Source: Bryobacteraceae bacterium
GTDB taxonomy: Bacteria > Acidobacteriota > Terriglobia > Bryobacterales > Bryobacteraceae
DNA length: 33,597 bases
Assembly (NCBI GenBank): GCA_030038565.1
Contig: JASHSS010000007.1
Span: forward strand, 1 to 33,597
Direction: 5' to 3'
The notes below the pieces were generated by a model. That model saw only the letters and a program-made list of their open reading frames with translations, searched no databases and was not told the DNA's origin. This document shows positions 23,972 through 32,192 of the stretch, one piece after another (the first letter of the stretch is position 1; the number at the start of each line of letters is the position of its first letter). Made by a program: the position numbers and the translations under genes.

Positions 23972-25228
23972 ATGAAGTCCATACTGCGTATTTCCGCCTG
24001 GGCGCTGCTGACAGGCGTGGCTGCCTGCGGGATAGCGGCCGCCGATGAGATCAGTGACTGGAACCAGATGCTGCTCTCGGCGATGCTGACCAACCCGGTA
24101 ACGCCTGCCCCGCTTACGATGCGGGTGGCGGCCATTGTTCAGGCCGCGGTCTTCGATGCCGTGAATGGAATCGACCGGCGTTACATGCCGATCTATGTTC
24201 CGCCTGCGGCGCCGCCGGGAACCTCTGCCCGGGCCGCCGCCGTCGAGGCCGCCTATACGGCTCTGGTGAGCCTTTTTCCCGCCCAGCAGGCCAAATTCGA
24301 TCAGCAGCTCGCGGCCTCTATGGCGGCCATCACCGACACGCCCGATGCGGTCAAACAGGGATTGTCCTGGGGGCAGACAGTGGCCCAGGAGATTCTGACA
24401 TGGCGCAGCCAGGACGGTTTCTCAGACACCGTTCCGCCGTACCTCGGGGGAACCCAGCCCGGCCAGTGGCGTCCCACACCGCCGGCCATGGCCGCGGGGC
24501 TCGCGCCCCAGTTGGCCACTACCAACCCATGGGTCATCCGCTCGCCTTCGCAGTTCCGCCCCGCAGGCCCCCCCGCCCTCACCAGCGACCAGTATCTGGC
24601 CGATTACAACGAGACCAAAAACATGGGAAGCGCGACGCTTTCCGGCCGAACCGACGACCAGACTCTCTACGCGAATTTCTGGCAGGCCGGCAACCCTCCC
24701 GATTACTTTGATCCGGTAGTGCTGTCGCTCGCCGCGCAGCATCATTTCCAGATAACCCAGACGGCCCGGATGCTCGCGCTGGTCAATCTGGCCATGGCGG
24801 ACGCGATCATCGGCTGCTGGGACGCCAAGTATACCTACAGTTTCTGGCGGCCGATTACGGCCATCCAACTGGGCGACACGGACACCAATGACAATACCGT
24901 GGGCGACCCGACCTGGACCCCCCTGATTACCACGCCCGCTTTTCCGGAGTACCCCTCGGCGCACTCCTGTGTCAGCGGCGCAGCGACAGAGGTCCTCTCC
25001 CACACCTTTGGCGAGGATACGCCTTTCAATGTAATGTCGGACGCCATGCTGGGAGTCACCCGCAGGTTCCACAACTTCTCGGAAGCTTTGGAAGAGATCC
25101 AGAACGCGCGCGTCTTTGGAGGCATTCATTTCCGGACCGCCTGCGTCGATGGGACTTCGCTCGGCATCTCGGTGGGCGATTACGTGATGGCGCACGCCCT
25201 GCTGGCGACTGAAGGAGGCGGCAACTAG
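23972..25228 (+). CDS. Vanadium-dependent haloperoxidase / PAP2-superfamily secreted protein
   Basis: MKSILRISAWALLTGVAACGIAAADEISDWNQM; KYTYSFWRPITAIQ, PEYPSAHSCVSGA, ARVFGGIHFRTA correspond to the vanadate/phosphate-binding K/R, PSxHS and R/H motifs. SD TTGGAGGAAC. Confidence 0.88.
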   Translation: MKSILRISAWALLTGVAACGIAAADEISDWNQMLLSAMLTNPVTPAPLTMRVAAIVQAAVFDAVNGIDRRYMPIYVPPAAPPGTSARAAAVEAAYTALVSLFPAQQAKFDQQLAASMAAITDTPDAVKQGLSWGQTVAQEILTWRSQDGFSDTVPPYLGGTQPGQWRPTPPAMAAGLAPQLATTNPWVIRSPSQFRPAGPPALTSDQYLADYNETKNMGSATLSGRTDDQTLYANFWQAGNPPDYFDPVVLSLAAQHHFQITQTARMLALVNLAMADAIIGCWDAKYTYSFWRPITAIQLGDTDTNDNTVGDPTWTPLITTPAFPEYPSAHSCVSGAATEVLSHTFGEDTPFNVMSDAMLGVTRRFHNFSEALEEIQNARVFGGIHFRTACVDGTSLGISVGDYVMAHALLATEGGGN

Positions 25229-25295
25229 GTCTTCGACGGCGTGATTTCGTTCCCCCGCTTGGTGCGGCAGGCCGGCGCGGCCCGCCTGCCGCGCC
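25226..25295 (+). repeat. Stop-codon-anchored dispersed repeat, copy 1, with terminal hairpin
   Basis: TAGGTCTTCGACGGCGTGATTTCGTTCCCCCGCTTGGTGCGGCAGGCC..., about 40/48 identical by hand count to 28650-28697; hairpin GCGGCAGGC (25264-25272) / GCCTGCCGC (25284-25292), 11-nt loop. Confidence 0.7.
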
Positions 25296-25300
25296 CCCAT

Positions 25301-26728
25301 TCAAACCGCCCGCGCCCGGCGAAGCCCCAAACGCACACGATGAAGCAGGCCTCCGACCAGGCCGTCCAGCCGCGCCGCCCAAGCCAGTCTCCGCAGGCTC
25401 TTCTGAAGTTGCAAAGCCCACGCGGTGCGCTCCTGGAGTTGCTGCTCGAGTCGCAATGCCCAGGCCGTGCGCTCCTGGAATTGTTCCTCCAGCCGCCCGG
25501 CCACGGCGTTGGCCTCCTGAACCCCCCGTTCGAGCGTCAGAGCCCAGGCGGTGCGCTCAGCCAGTTGCGCCTCCAGTTTCCGGGCCCAGGCGGTACGCTC
25601 CTCCAGGTCGTGCTTCAAGCCCGCGATCTGGCGCTCGGCTTCCGCCAGCCGGGCTCCGATTTCCGCCTCCCGCGACGGCTGCTGGGGCCACCCCTCCCAT
25701 TGGTACGACTGGGCCACGGCTTGGGGCTCGGCGGCGCGCGCAAGCCCGGGCGGACGAAGGCAGAATTGCGGGCTTAGCGGCGCGGGAAAGAGTGGCGGAA
25801 TCTGGCCTTCGGTTCCCACTACCGCCAGCATATGGGTCGGCTTGATACGACCCGACAGAATCTCCCGCTCATCGCGTTCCTGCACCTCATCAATGAAAGC
25901 GCGATCCCATTCCGCGGTGGCGTCGAAGTTGTACCCGAACGAGCGGTCCACGAACGGATCGATGATATTGGCAAAGCCGATAAAAAGCTGGAAGTGGAAA
26001 GTGTCGAGCAGCAGCGGCAGAATCTCCTCCGAGCGAATAGCCTCGAAGGTCGCGCCTGGACAGGCTTGGTTCCGGTAAAGCTCCTCATAACGCTGCAACT
26101 GCCTGTTGAAGCGGTAGGCGGGCGGCAGCCTGCGCCAGAACTGCTGCACGATCTCCAGCGCTTCCGGCCAACGGTCGTGGCCGTTCCGCCCGATGATGTC
26201 GGAGATCAGAAAGCAGCCGCCGGGCGTCAGAGATCCCCGGACCTGGGCGAACAGGTCTTCCAGCTTCAGAACATGGTGCAGTGCCTGGTTGGCCATCACC
26301 GCGTCATACTGCCGTTCGGCGGTCCACCGGTTAAGATCGGCGTGAATCGCGTGGATGTGGCTGCCCAGGCCCGCATCCCCGGCGGCCAGCATGCCGCGTT
26401 CCAGCATGGCGGCATTCAGATCCACGCAATCAATCACAAATCCGGTGTGTCCCTCGGCGCGCAACTGCGCCGCCGCTTGAATCTCCAGGTCGCAATTCCC
26501 CGCGCCGAGGCTCAGAAACCGGGCGCCCTCACCCCGCCGCCGGCATTGCTGCCCCAAGTACCGGCCGAACATTTCGTGGGGGTGCGCAAATCCGAACGCC
26601 TCCAGTTTGGGGCGCACATACCGGTTGGACCAGTAGTGAAAGATGGGCGGAAGCTCGTGGACTTCGAGGCAGTCCTCGTAGGCGCCGATCTCGCCTGCCA
26701 CACGCTCTTGATAACTTGCCGGTTCCAT
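25301..26728 (-). CDS. Class I SAM-dependent methyltransferase with C-terminal coiled-coil repeats
   Basis: ARFLSLGAGNCDLEIQAA (motif I), FVIDCVDLNAAMLERG, YDAVMANQALHHVLKLEDLFAQVRGSLTPGGCFLISDIIGRNGH; then 14-aa ERTAWA repeats. Confidence 0.88.
   Translation of the reverse strand: MEPASYQERVAGEIGAYEDCLEVHELPPIFHYWSNRYVRPKLEAFGFAHPHEMFGRYLGQQCRRRGEGARFLSLGAGNCDLEIQAAAQLRAEGHTGFVIDCVDLNAAMLERGMLAAGDAGLGSHIHAIHADLNRWTAERQYDAVMANQALHHVLKLEDLFAQVRGSLTPGGCFLISDIIGRNGHDRWPEALEIVQQFWRRLPPAYRFNRQLQRYEELYRNQACPGATFEAIRSEEILPLLLDTFHFQLFIGFANIIDPFVDRSFGYNFDATAEWDRAFIDEVQERDEREILSGRIKPTHMLAVVGTEGQIPPLFPAPLSPQFCLRPPGLARAAEPQAVAQSYQWEGWPQQPSREAEIGARLAEAERQIAGLKHDLEERTAWARKLEAQLAERTAWALTLERGVQEANAVAGRLEEQFQERTAWALRLEQQLQERTAWALQLQKSLRRLAWAARLDGLVGGLLHRVRLGLRRARAV
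25350..25615 (-). repeat. 14-aa (42-nt) coiled-coil repeats, about six units
   Basis: LEERTAWARKLEAQ / LAERTAWALTLERG / VQEANAVAGRLEEQ / FQERTAWALRLEQQ / LQERTAWALQLQKS / LRRLAWAARLDGLV. Confidence 0.85.
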
Positions 26729-28205: not shown

Positions 28206-28652
28206 GTGCCGAGACTCTGCGGGGTGACCCGCGTGGACCGCGTGGTGGTGAACAAAGGCCGCCGCGAACTGCTGCTGCTGGCGGGCGCGAACGTGCTGCG
28301 CACCTATCGCGTCGCCCTGGGTTCCGACCCCTTGGGGCACAAGCTGTGCGAGGGCGACGGACGGACCCCCGAAGGCCGCTACGCGATTGACCGGCGCAAT
28401 CCGCAGAGCGCCTATCACCTCGCCCTGCGCATTTCGTATCCCAACCAGGCCGATCGCCAACGGGCTGAGGAACTGGGCCTTGACCCCGGCGGCGACATCA
28501 TGATCCATGGCCTGCCGAACGGCGTGGATGCCGGCCAACGAGGCCATCCCCAGCGCGATTGGACCCGCGGGTGCATCGCCGTAACCAATGCCGAGATCGA
28601 AGAGATCTGGAATCTGGTGGCCGAGGGAACCCCGGTGGAGATCAACCCCTAG
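28206..28652 (+). CDS. L,D-transpeptidase (YkuD/ErfK) domain protein
   Basis: VVVNKGRRELLLLAGANVLRTYRVALGSDPLGHKLCEGDGRTPEGRYAI...DIMIHGLPNG...DWTRGCIAVTNAEIEEIWNLV: HG and xRGCI catalytic motif. GTG start as per track; GTG 28224 is an alternative. Confidence 0.9.
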   Translation: MPRLCGVTRVDRVVVNKGRRELLLLAGANVLRTYRVALGSDPLGHKLCEGDGRTPEGRYAIDRRNPQSAYHLALRISYPNQADRQRAEELGLDPGGDIMIHGLPNGVDAGQRGHPQRDWTRGCIAVTNAEIEEIWNLVAEGTPVEINP

Positions 28653-28737
28653 GTCTTCGATCGCGTGATTTAGTTCTTCCGCTTGGTCGGGCATGCCTTC
28701 AGCCTGCCCTGGAGAGGCTGAAGGCCTGTCCCACCAA
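28650..28737 (+). repeat. Stop-codon-anchored dispersed repeat, copy 2, with long hairpin
   Basis: TAGGTCTTCGATCGCGTGATTTAGTTCTTCCGCTTGGTCGGGCATGCC...; hairpin GCCTTCAGCC (28695-28704) / GGCTGAAGGC (28716-28725), 11-nt loop, extendable outward to TTGGT/ACCAA (28683-28687 / 28733-28737). Confidence 0.75.
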
Positions 28738-28865
28738 TGCCTCACGCATCATGGTGTGACAGGCGCGTCTTCAGGGCAGCGAATCATGCGGTCGGGGACC
28801 TAGCCTAGACGCCGGTCGAGGCCCGCCGGCCGCCGCGCCGCCCTCCCCGTCGCACTCCTCCCGAT

Positions 28866-28895
28866 TTGACCCGCAAGGGACCGATTCGATACACT
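28866..28895 (+). promoter_or_regulatory. Putative sigma70-type promoter of the BNR-repeat gene
   Basis: TTGACC (28866-28871), 18-nt spacer, TACACT (28890-28895), about 21 nt before ATG 28917. Confidence 0.4.
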
Positions 28896-28916
28896 TCGAG
28901 CGATTCCCTCAGGAGG

Positions 28917-31900
28917 ATGGCCGTGTTGAATTGTCTTGGTAAGACGCTGGTTCCCTTGGTGTCCGCCGCGCTGGCGTTGACCCCGCTTTCCGCACAACGC
29001 CGGGGCGGAGGCGGCGCCGCCGTGCCCCAGGACCTGGAGTTCCGCTTCATGGGTCCCGCCGTGGGGAACCGCATCGCCTCCGCCACCGGTGTGCCCGGCG
29101 ACCCCCACACTTATTACGCCGGCGCGGCCTCGGGCGGCGTGTGGAAATCCACCGATGGCGGCGCCCACTTTGCGCCCGTGTTCGACAGCCAGCCCGTCCA
29201 GGCCATCGGCGCCATTACGGTGGCCTCCTCCGATCCCAAAACCGTCTGGGTGGGCACGGGCGAGGCTTGGGCCATCCGCGACAGCGACATGATGGGCGAC
29301 GGGGTCTACAAATCCACCGATGCCGGCCAGACCTGGAGCCACATGGGACTCGAAGAAACCGGCCGCATCGCCCGCATCCTCATCCATCCCACCAATCCCG
29401 ATATCGTTTATGTGTGCGCCGCCGGCCGGCTCACCGGACCACAGCAGGAGCGCGGCGTCTACAAGACCACCGACGGCGGCAAGACGTGGCAGCGTTCGCT
29501 CTTCGTCAGCCCCAACGCCGGCTGCTCCGGCCTCACCATGGATGCCCACGATCCCAACACCCTGTTCGCCGGCGCCTGGGAAGTGGTCATGCACACCTAC
29601 GCCATGCTCAGCGGCGGACCGGGCAGCGGCGTCTACGTCACCCACGATGGCGGCGCCACCTGGAACAAAATCGAAGGCCACGGCATGCCCAAGCCACCCG
29701 TGGGCAAGGTGGATGTGGCCGTTGCGCCGGGCGATTCCAAGCGCGTCTACGCGCTCATTCAGACCGCCGACCAGGGCTCCATCTGGCGCTCCGACGATGG
29801 CGGCGTCAACTGGACCAACGGAAGCTGGCAGCGAGCCCTCATCGGCCGCGCCGGCTACTACATTCACCTGGCCGTGTCTCCCTCCAACCCCGACGAGGTG
29901 CTGGTGGCCAACAGCAGTTTCTGGCTCTCCACCGATGGCGGCAAATCCTTCCGCACCGTGCCCTGGGGCGGCGACACCCACGATATCTGGATGGACCCCA
30001 CCGACGGCAAGCGCATCATCGTCACCCACGACGGCGGCATGTACGTCACCAACGACCACGGCAGCACTTCCATCCGCGTCACCCTACCCATTGGGCAGAT
30101 GTACCACGTGGCCGTGGATAACGACGTGCCGTACAAAATTTACGGCAACATGCAGGACGACGGCACTATGCGCGGCCTTTCCACCACCCAGGAAGCCGGC
30201 CCCAACGTGCCCGGCCAGAACGGCGGCGGTCGCGGTGGTTTTGGCGGAGGCGGCTTTGGCGGGCGCGGTGGTTTCGGCGGCGTCGGCCCCTGGGAGCACA
30301 ACCTGGGCGGATGCGAATCGGGCTTCACCCTCCCCGATGTGACCGACACCAACATCGTGTGGGCCTCCTGCTACGGCAACGAAGTTACGCGCTACGACGA
30401 CCGCACCAAGGTAGCTCGCTCCGTCAGCCCGTGGCTGCACACGCTCGATTCTCCGCCCGATAAGCCCAAGTACCGCTGCCACTGGACCGCGCCTCTGGCC
30501 ATCGACCCGTTCGACCATAACGTGGTCTATTACGGCTGCCAGATGGTCCTGCGGACCTCCAACGGCGGCGTGAGCTGGGTCGAGTTGAGCCCCGATCTTT
30601 CCACTAAGGATCCCAGCCGCATCATTTCTTCCGGCGGCATCGTGGGCGATAACCTCGGCCAGTTCTACGGCGAGGTGGTCTTCTCGATCGCCCCGTCGGA
30701 AGTGCAGAAAGGCCTCATCTGGGCCGGCACCAACGATGGTAAGGTGTGGTACACCTCCGACGCCGGCAAAACCTGGAATGACGTCACCAAAAACATCGCC
30801 GGCCTTCCCGCCTGGGGCACGGTCTCCAAGATCGAGCCATCCCATTTCGATCCCGCCACAGCTTACATCTGCGTCGATTTCCACCTGATGGACAACCGCG
30901 ATCCGTTCATCTACAAGACCAGCGATTTCGGCAAGACGTGGAAGAAGATCACCGGCAACCTGCCCACCGGGCCGCTGGCTTACGCGCGGGTGATCGCCGA
31001 GAATCCCAATAAGAAAGGCATGCTCTTCGTCGGCACCGGAAACCAGTTGTATTACTCCATGGATGACGGCGCCACTTACCAGCCGCTCGAGCGCGGCTTG
31101 CCGCATGCGCCGGTTTCCTGGATCGTGGTGCAGAAGCAAGCCCATGACCTGGTAGTCTCCACTTACGGCCGCGGCTTTTACATCATGGAAGATATTTCGC
31201 CGCTGGAACAGGGCGCCATGGAATCCACCGCCACCGCCGCCGTGCAATTAGTCGCGCCGCGCCCGGCTTACCGCTTGATCCGCGGCGGCAACGCCTTGTT
31301 GAGCTTTGTGGCCCGGGGGGCGCCCGGCGGGCCCGCCGAAGTCGAGATCCACGACAGCGCCGGAACCCTGGTCCGAAAGCTTGGTCCACTCACCGCCCAC
31401 GCCGGCCTGAATCGCTTCACCTGGGATATGCATTATGAGCCGCCGCGCCTGGTGGCCCTTCGCACCACTCCGCCCGAGGACCCGCACATCTGGGAAGAGC
31501 CGCGCTTCCAGAATACCGATACCCGTCCGATTACCCATTGGGGCCTCCAGCAGGCCGAGATCGGCCCCATCGCCGCTCCCGGCAGATACAGCGTAAGTCT
31601 TACCGTCGGCGGCCAGACTTATACCCAACCGCTCGAAGTGCGGCGCAATCCCGACAGCCACGGCACCGAATCGGAGCTGCAATCTTCCGTCCGCCTCCAG
31701 CTCAAGGTGCGCGACGACATCACCTCGGTTTCCGATATGACCAATCAGATCGAGTGGATGCGCAAACAGCTCGAAGATCAGCAGAAGACCGTCACGGGTC
31801 GCGCGGAGTTGATCAAGTTAATGGACACCATCGACACCCGCCTGAAGGACGTCGAGTACCGCTTGATTACCCGCGCCGACGCGCTCAGCGACGATAAGTA

Positions 31901-32192
31901 CTTCCAGGAGTCGTATAACCTGTACCAGAATTTCATCTGGTTGAACGGTGAAATCGGCACCGGAGCCGGAGATGTGGCCGGATCGGGCGATTGGGGACAG
32001 ACCGAAACCGCCATCGGCTTGGTGCTCGACCTGGAGCGCCAGTTAGCCGCGGTCAAGACACAGTATAAGAATGTTATGGACAAGGACGTCCCGGCTTACA
32101 ATGCCCAGATTAAGAACGCCGGGGTGAAGCCTCTCGAAACCACCGGCGCCCCGCTGCCTCCGGCCCGCACGGGCGGCCGCGGCGGGCAGTAA
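28917..32192 (+). CDS. Secreted BNR/sortilin-like (VPS10-type) beta-propeller protein
   Basis: SD AGGAGG; MAVLNCLGKTLVPLVSAALALTPLSAQRRGG signal; repeated S-x-D-x-G-x-x-W Asp-box/BNR motifs: KSTDGGAHF, KSTDAGQTWSH, KTTDGGKTWQR, VTHDGGATWNK, RSDDGGVNWTN, YTSDAGKTWND, KTSDFGKTWKK. Confidence 0.93.
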   Translation: MAVLNCLGKTLVPLVSAALALTPLSAQRRGGGGAAVPQDLEFRFMGPAVGNRIASATGVPGDPHTYYAGAASGGVWKSTDGGAHFAPVFDSQPVQAIGAITVASSDPKTVWVGTGEAWAIRDSDMMGDGVYKSTDAGQTWSHMGLEETGRIARILIHPTNPDIVYVCAAGRLTGPQQERGVYKTTDGGKTWQRSLFVSPNAGCSGLTMDAHDPNTLFAGAWEVVMHTYAMLSGGPGSGVYVTHDGGATWNKIEGHGMPKPPVGKVDVAVAPGDSKRVYALIQTADQGSIWRSDDGGVNWTNGSWQRALIGRAGYYIHLAVSPSNPDEVLVANSSFWLSTDGGKSFRTVPWGGDTHDIWMDPTDGKRIIVTHDGGMYVTNDHGSTSIRVTLPIGQMYHVAVDNDVPYKIYGNMQDDGTMRGLSTTQEAGPNVPGQNGGGRGGFGGGGFGGRGGFGGVGPWEHNLGGCESGFTLPDVTDTNIVWASCYGNEVTRYDDRTKVARSVSPWLHTLDSPPDKPKYRCHWTAPLAIDPFDHNVVYYGCQMVLRTSNGGVSWVELSPDLSTKDPSRIISSGGIVGDNLGQFYGEVVFSIAPSEVQKGLIWAGTNDGKVWYTSDAGKTWNDVTKNIAGLPAWGTVSKIEPSHFDPATAYICVDFHLMDNRDPFIYKTSDFGKTWKKITGNLPTGPLAYARVIAENPNKKGMLFVGTGNQLYYSMDDGATYQPLERGLPHAPVSWIVVQKQAHDLVVSTYGRGFYIMEDISPLEQGAMESTATAAVQLVAPRPAYRLIRGGNALLSFVARGAPGGPAEVEIHDSAGTLVRKLGPLTAHAGLNRFTWDMHYEPPRLVALRTTPPEDPHIWEEPRFQNTDTRPITHWGLQQAEIGPIAAPGRYSVSLTVGGQTYTQPLEVRRNPDSHGTESELQSSVRLQLKVRDDITSVSDMTNQIEWMRKQLEDQQKTVTGRAELIKLMDTIDTRLKDVEYRLITRADALSDDKYFQESYNLYQNFIWLNGEIGTGAGDVAGSGDWGQTETAIGLVLDLERQLAAVKTQYKNVMDKDVPAYNAQIKNAGVKPLETTGAPLPPARTGGRGGQ

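Follow-up and report, generated by a model that had tools for sequence, protein, structure and literature searches.

A repeat that begins at TAG stop codons in a Bryobacteraceae genome is very probably one end of an IS630-type MITE inserted in CTAG

The DNA analysed here (the window) is a stretch of 33,597 nucleotides that makes up the whole of contig C177 in the fragmented genome assembly of a Bryobacteraceae bacterium (8.08 Mb, 870 contigs, 92% complete); the relatives used for comparison belong to the Bryobacterales. Two copies of a repeat lie in the window, copy 1 behind a PAP2/haloperoxidase-like gene that ends at 25228 and copy 2 behind an L,D-transpeptidase (YkuD) gene that ends at 28652. 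The original prediction was that these unrelated genes are followed by the same repeat and that the repeat starts with an in-frame TAG in both cases, and this was confirmed, the two copies being alike at 41 of 49 positions (84%; 25225-25273 compared with 28649-28697). The hairpin described for copy 1, with 9 bp and an 11-nt loop, is also present (GCGGCAGGC at 25264-25272 and GCCTGCCGC at 25284-25292). The predicted position between convergent genes applies to copy 1 and not to copy 2, which is followed on its right by a gene (28917-32192) of + orientation as well. What had been taken for the repeat is one end only of a larger element, which in copy 2 extends to 28802 (Table 1).

Table 1. Features of the two window copies and of the DNA around them.
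Feature	Position	Strand	Basis or remark
One-ended divergent MITE relic, window copy 1	25225..~25292	+	Left terminal repeat 25226-25246 and own hairpin
Repeated stretch shared with the end of contig C483, 95% identity	25227..25428	.	BLASTN of the two loci
L,D-transpeptidase gene	28224-28652		Its stop is the TAG of the copy 2 left terminal repeat
CTAG at the left border of copy 2 (target C-TA and element G)	28649..28652	.	Sequence; CTAG preference across copies
Complete MITE, window copy 2, TA to TA	28650..28802	+	Both ends present, 97% identity to the 153-bp consensus
Left terminal inverted repeat of copy 2, including TA	28650..28670	+	1 mismatch to TAGGTCYNCGACCGCRTGATT
Element proper of copy 2, 149 bp, GG...CC	28652-28800	+	Between two TA dinucleotides in the CTAG target
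Palindromic core of copy 2 (REP-like double hairpin)	28683..28737	.	Self-inverted match; 254 genome pattern sites
Right terminal inverted repeat of copy 2, including TA	28782..28802	-	0 mismatches to the TAGGTCYNCGACCGCRTGATT pattern
CTAGCCTAG: right-border CTAG of copy 2 and a second CTAG 5 bp on	28800..28808	.	5-bp spacing at many MITE borders

Further copies were found in the source genome, as expected for a dispersed repeat. The first 27 nt occurred at 64 places (at most 3 mismatches) compared with 0 for the reversed control, and the 21-nt terminal repeat occurred at 137 places compared with 2 for its control. The catalogue of copies was drawn from 100 of these 137 places, and all family counts given below are counts among the matches listed. 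On this basis the source genome holds at least 76 whole or partial copies; left ends could be read with their flanks in 63, of which 44 had a right end and 19 did not, and there were at least 13 lone right ends. Across the aligned copies the similarity continues to a second end that is the reverse complement of the first, and in the 44 two-ended copies among the matches listed it stops sharply on both sides. Counted with the TA on either side, the consensus measures 153 bp, and its ends (TAGGTCTTCGACCGCGTGATT and TAGGTCCCCGACCGCATGATT) are inverted repeats of each other at 18 of 21 nt. Copy sizes range from 85 to 328 bp with a mode of 153 bp, the spread being a result of internal deletions and added modules. 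At least 16 copies among the matches listed are exactly 153 bp long and 95.4-99.3% identical to the consensus, which suggests that the family underwent a fairly recent burst. The element is thus short and multi-copy, as a MITE is, and it contains no transposase gene, for which 149 bp leaves no room. In one copy (L010, 1502-2467) the core is split by about 0.9 kb of DNA with inverted ends (CATAAGCGCTAAC... and ...GTTAGCGTTTATG), apparently another insertion element. Two other copies (L004 and L023) have a common altered right end and right flank (GCGGTCGGCGTATTCGCCCCGCGCCCC), which represents either a variant end or a duplicated locus.

Among the matches listed, the base ahead of the left TA was C in 54 of 63 cases and the base past the right TA was G in 48 of 57, and the target is therefore C-TA-G. 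Most copies are bordered by TA on either side, and the outer bases are independent of the element. In two copies (L091 and L021) the left TA is preceded by T, yet the C before the right TA is kept, and in a relative (L097) the right TA is followed by C with a left border that is still TAG. These borders fit a duplication of TA by an element whose own ends are always G and C, not a 4-bp duplication. Judged from such border sequences, the MITE probably duplicates TA upon insertion, while the restoration of a reading frame, which is direct, comes from the IS partner L183 alone (see below). The genomes searched included no sister genome of the source genus, hence no empty site of a MITE copy. ORF spans in reconstructed empty sites were set aside because the border letters had been taken as found (CA for a mutated TA), which gave false spans.

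Nine related genomes in which the same terminal repeat occurs were searched for DDE_3 transposases. One of the elements found, L183, is a 1412-bp member of the IS630 family with two frames, HTH followed by DDE_3, and with the ends TAGGTTTTCGACCGCCTGAAAAAGTTC and TAGGTCTCCGACCGCCTGAAAAGGTTC. It sits at a CTAG within another transposase gene, and when the element and one TA are taken out, the interrupted host reading frame is continuous across the junction. At least eight IS630 relatives in related genera have such ends, and every one that was checked lies in C-TA...TA-G. The elements of this clade are 1.2-1.8 kb long and have the same terminal repeat and C-TA-G target as the MITE. In terms of the ends, the L183 clade and the left end of the MITE agree at 18-22 of 27 positions; other IS630 clades reach no more than 14, and none of 100,000 random sequences exceeded 19. 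A difference lies at positions 20-22 of the terminal repeat, with TTT or TTC in the MITE and AAA in the IS, and this counts against the match. The MITE thus has its terminal repeats in common with an IS630-family element, and from these sequences the L183-type clade is the likely source of the family.

The source genome itself contained no clear member of this partner clade, only divergent IS630 fragments without these ends. The clade may be unassembled in the draft or may have been lost, and a partner in the same genome is not required of a MITE that has lost its partner. These IS630 fragments were rejected as partner since no matching ends were found at their loci; IS5-type DUF4096 transposases were rejected because none was found in the source genome, and DDE_Tnp_1 transposases because none of their four hits had matching ends. 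Among 101 family genomes, 14 (one of them the source genome) contain the terminal-repeat pattern, and many of the 14 have MITEs of about 105-140 bp that are bounded by it and have other palindromic cores. In the GTDB genome collection, which possibly leaves out the source genome, a long and too strict form of the pattern returned three stretches from two Bryobacterales MAGs.

The product of insertion is C-TA-[GG...CC]-TA-G, so that a gene reading into the left border meets a TAG composed of TA and the first G of the element, and at the right border a TAG is likewise kept on the opposite strand. The anchoring to stop codons arises because the target, the rare sequence CTAG, contains TAG and the native stop survives the insertion. 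The predicted role of the repeat in supplying the stop must therefore be turned around: the TAG is C-TA-G target DNA that was already there before insertion if the target was CTAG, and the stop is preserved rather than provided. The suggestion of a small intergenic mobile element of REP/MITE-like kind holds and can be made more precise, in that the repeat is very probably one end of a non-autonomous IS630-type MITE, with a REP-like palindrome, that lies in CTAG and leaves TAG as a stop after insertion.

A gene's TAG stop borders 12 of the 44 two-ended copies (8 at the left and 4 at the right border; among the matches listed, with a simple codon-usage gene caller). Hence the predicted preference for the 3' ends of genes is seen, while the stop codon itself is touched in only about one quarter of the copies. 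In 230 kb of sequence, CTAG at MITE borders fell on 19 stops, 52 non-coding positions and 4 positions in CDS, compared with 6, 53 and 23 for the free CTAG sites in the same sequence. Stops are thus commoner at MITE borders (19:52 versus 6:53 stop to non-coding, p=0.014), a statistic obtained with a crude gene caller and from sequence chosen around MITEs, which is biased to MITE loci. Gaps between convergent genes held 12 of 32 copies compared with 25 of 123 background gaps, a modest excess (p=0.04). Target choice and selection against gene disruption are enough to explain both the excess at stop codons and the excess in convergent gaps.

At its centre the element has a double palindrome (GGGGCAGGCCTTCAGCCTGCCC / GGACAGGCTGAAGGCCTGTCC). 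In the source genome there are 254 sites of the palindrome GGGNCAGGCYTTCAGCCTGNCC, many of them outside MITEs, and relatives or parts of this palindrome occur in other genera (for example in genomes G017 and G036). Because of this number of sites, their positions away from MITE ends and the occurrence in other genera, the core palindrome forms a REP-like family of its own, a member of which the MITE carries. The core resembles repetitive extragenic palindromes (REPs) in being a short, dispersed, extragenic palindrome. A REP is a single 20-40-bp palindrome without inverted termini or target duplication, whereas the element as a whole has inverted termini and is bordered by TA, features of the MITE and not of REPs. 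The hairpin of copy 1 is unlike the usual core of the family. Copy 2 folds strongly on the + strand (z = -7.5), largely by end-to-end pairing, and a scan of 28500-28950 on either strand for a GC-rich hairpin with a U-tract behind it gave no terminator-like site.

Two other readings of the family were weighed. The strong folding of copy 2, the excess in convergent gaps and the enrichment of stop codons at the borders would also be expected of a functional 3'-end element, either a bidirectional terminator or an mRNA-stabilising hairpin, that selection has placed after stops. This is very unlikely given that any element with inverted ends is expected to fold strongly, that most copies lie off stops with many of them in tandem or divergent gaps, and that the core differs from genus to genus; moreover, the inverted ends and C-TA/TA-G borders are marks of transposition, and the scan at copy 2 gave no U-tract terminator. 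The bidirectional terminator cassette of the original prediction is thus without sequence support, though the MITE may have a secondary effect on the 3' ends of mRNAs. An IS5/IS701-type MITE with a 4-bp CTAG (YTAR) duplication in place of the TA duplication would account for the CTAG seen at both borders in most copies, and CTAG or YTAA is duplicated by MITEPsy1 of Pseudomonas (PMC3189936). That the family is of this type is hardly credible, since the borders of L091, L021 and L097 break the 4-bp YTAR rule and fit TA, the terminal repeat matches IS630 elements, and the source genome search returned no transposase of the IS5 type.

A separate alternative concerns copy 1, in which the left end is followed by the distinct hairpin and then by the 3' end of a methyltransferase gene (25301-26728, - strand). 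The end of contig C483 (L002, 2-202) repeats this arrangement with 95% identity over 203 bp, from the terminal repeat exactly and into the gene until the contig break, and therefore a segment with the terminal repeat on one side was duplicated. Copy 1 may thus be one end of a larger mobile unit with the methyltransferase gene as a passenger, not a truncated MITE. We consider this unlikely, as the window contains no second terminal repeat (at most 6 mismatches) that is plausibly placed upstream of the gene and no right end for copy 1, the C483 end is the only other match to 25227-25428 that a DNA search of the assembly gave and is partial, and a segmental duplication or an assembly or strain variant fits equally well. 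The 3' part of the methyltransferase gene (25301-25602) contains five 42-nt direct repeats that code for a heptad-like tail.

If the family is an IS630-type MITE, a transposase of the L183 clade, now absent from or unassembled in the source genome, would have recognised the MITE ends and inserted copies at the TA of CTAG. Selection would have removed the copies that fell in coding sequence, and the survivors would be those in intergenic DNA or precisely at TAG stops, with a codon that would read TAG before and after insertion. The anchoring to stops would then reflect target choice and selection, not a stop-supplying function, and the core would be a captured REP-like palindrome. The occurrence of one terminal repeat behind unrelated genes would be explained by a simple rule, namely that the target of the transposon contains a stop and insertion keeps it.

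The nearest known system is RUP of pneumococcus, a non-autonomous element of 107 bp with about 108 intergenic copies, IS630-Spn1-like ends and insertion at TA, for which mobilisation in trans has been proposed (PMC2229807; PMC3049150). The MITE is similar to RUP in being short and non-autonomous, in its IS630-family-like ends and in its TA insertion, but sequence and host are unrelated, and the MITE has CTAG as its target and a REP-like palindrome as its core, with a partner IS that was seen in related genera and not in the same genome. In 36 cases a BOX element of pneumococcus encodes the stop codon with which a gene ends (PMC3049150). BOX elements are like the MITE in their stop codons at gene ends, and differ in their modular boxA/B/C structure, weaker link to another IS (ISSpn2) and unrelated sequence. 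According to the title of its description, IS630 of Shigella transposes preferentially to the TA in 5'-CTAG-3' (Tenzen and Ohtsubo 1991, cited in PMC2170065). That element is a full IS with a transposase and resembles the MITE in its target. IS870 of Agrobacterium vitis is an IS5-family element and not a member of IS630. By the title of the paper on it, its CTAG target gives the stop of its own gene (cited in PMC6471742), in contrast to the MITE, where the stop of the host gene is kept. This family was not described in the open-access papers searched on MITEs of Acidobacteria or Bryobacter, and a MITE family with its probable IS630 source clade is now described for a family of soil bacteria.

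At several MITE borders a second CTAG lies exactly 5 bp away (CTAGNCTAG, sometimes three units), and this spacing possibly represents either excision footprints (TA + 3 nt) or a target signature. We tentatively suggest, as an idea that is more speculative than probable, that TAG stops embedded in CTAG are a safe harbour for a family of TA-targeting transposons, that the 5-bp CTAGN ladder preserves the traces of repeated cut-and-paste excision (TA + 3 nt per cycle), and that REP-like palindromes are captured by, and exchanged within, one set of terminal repeats throughout a bacterial family. If the ladder is an excision footprint, it would record Tc1/mariner-like excision that took place in vivo in bacteria. 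The second CTAG was observed at 28800-28808 and at L003, L005, L019, L022, L045, L052, L091, L131 and L156. In 268 kb of sequence, 15 of the 19 CTAG-CTAG spacings of at most 20 bp were 5 bp, and most of these adjoin a MITE end.
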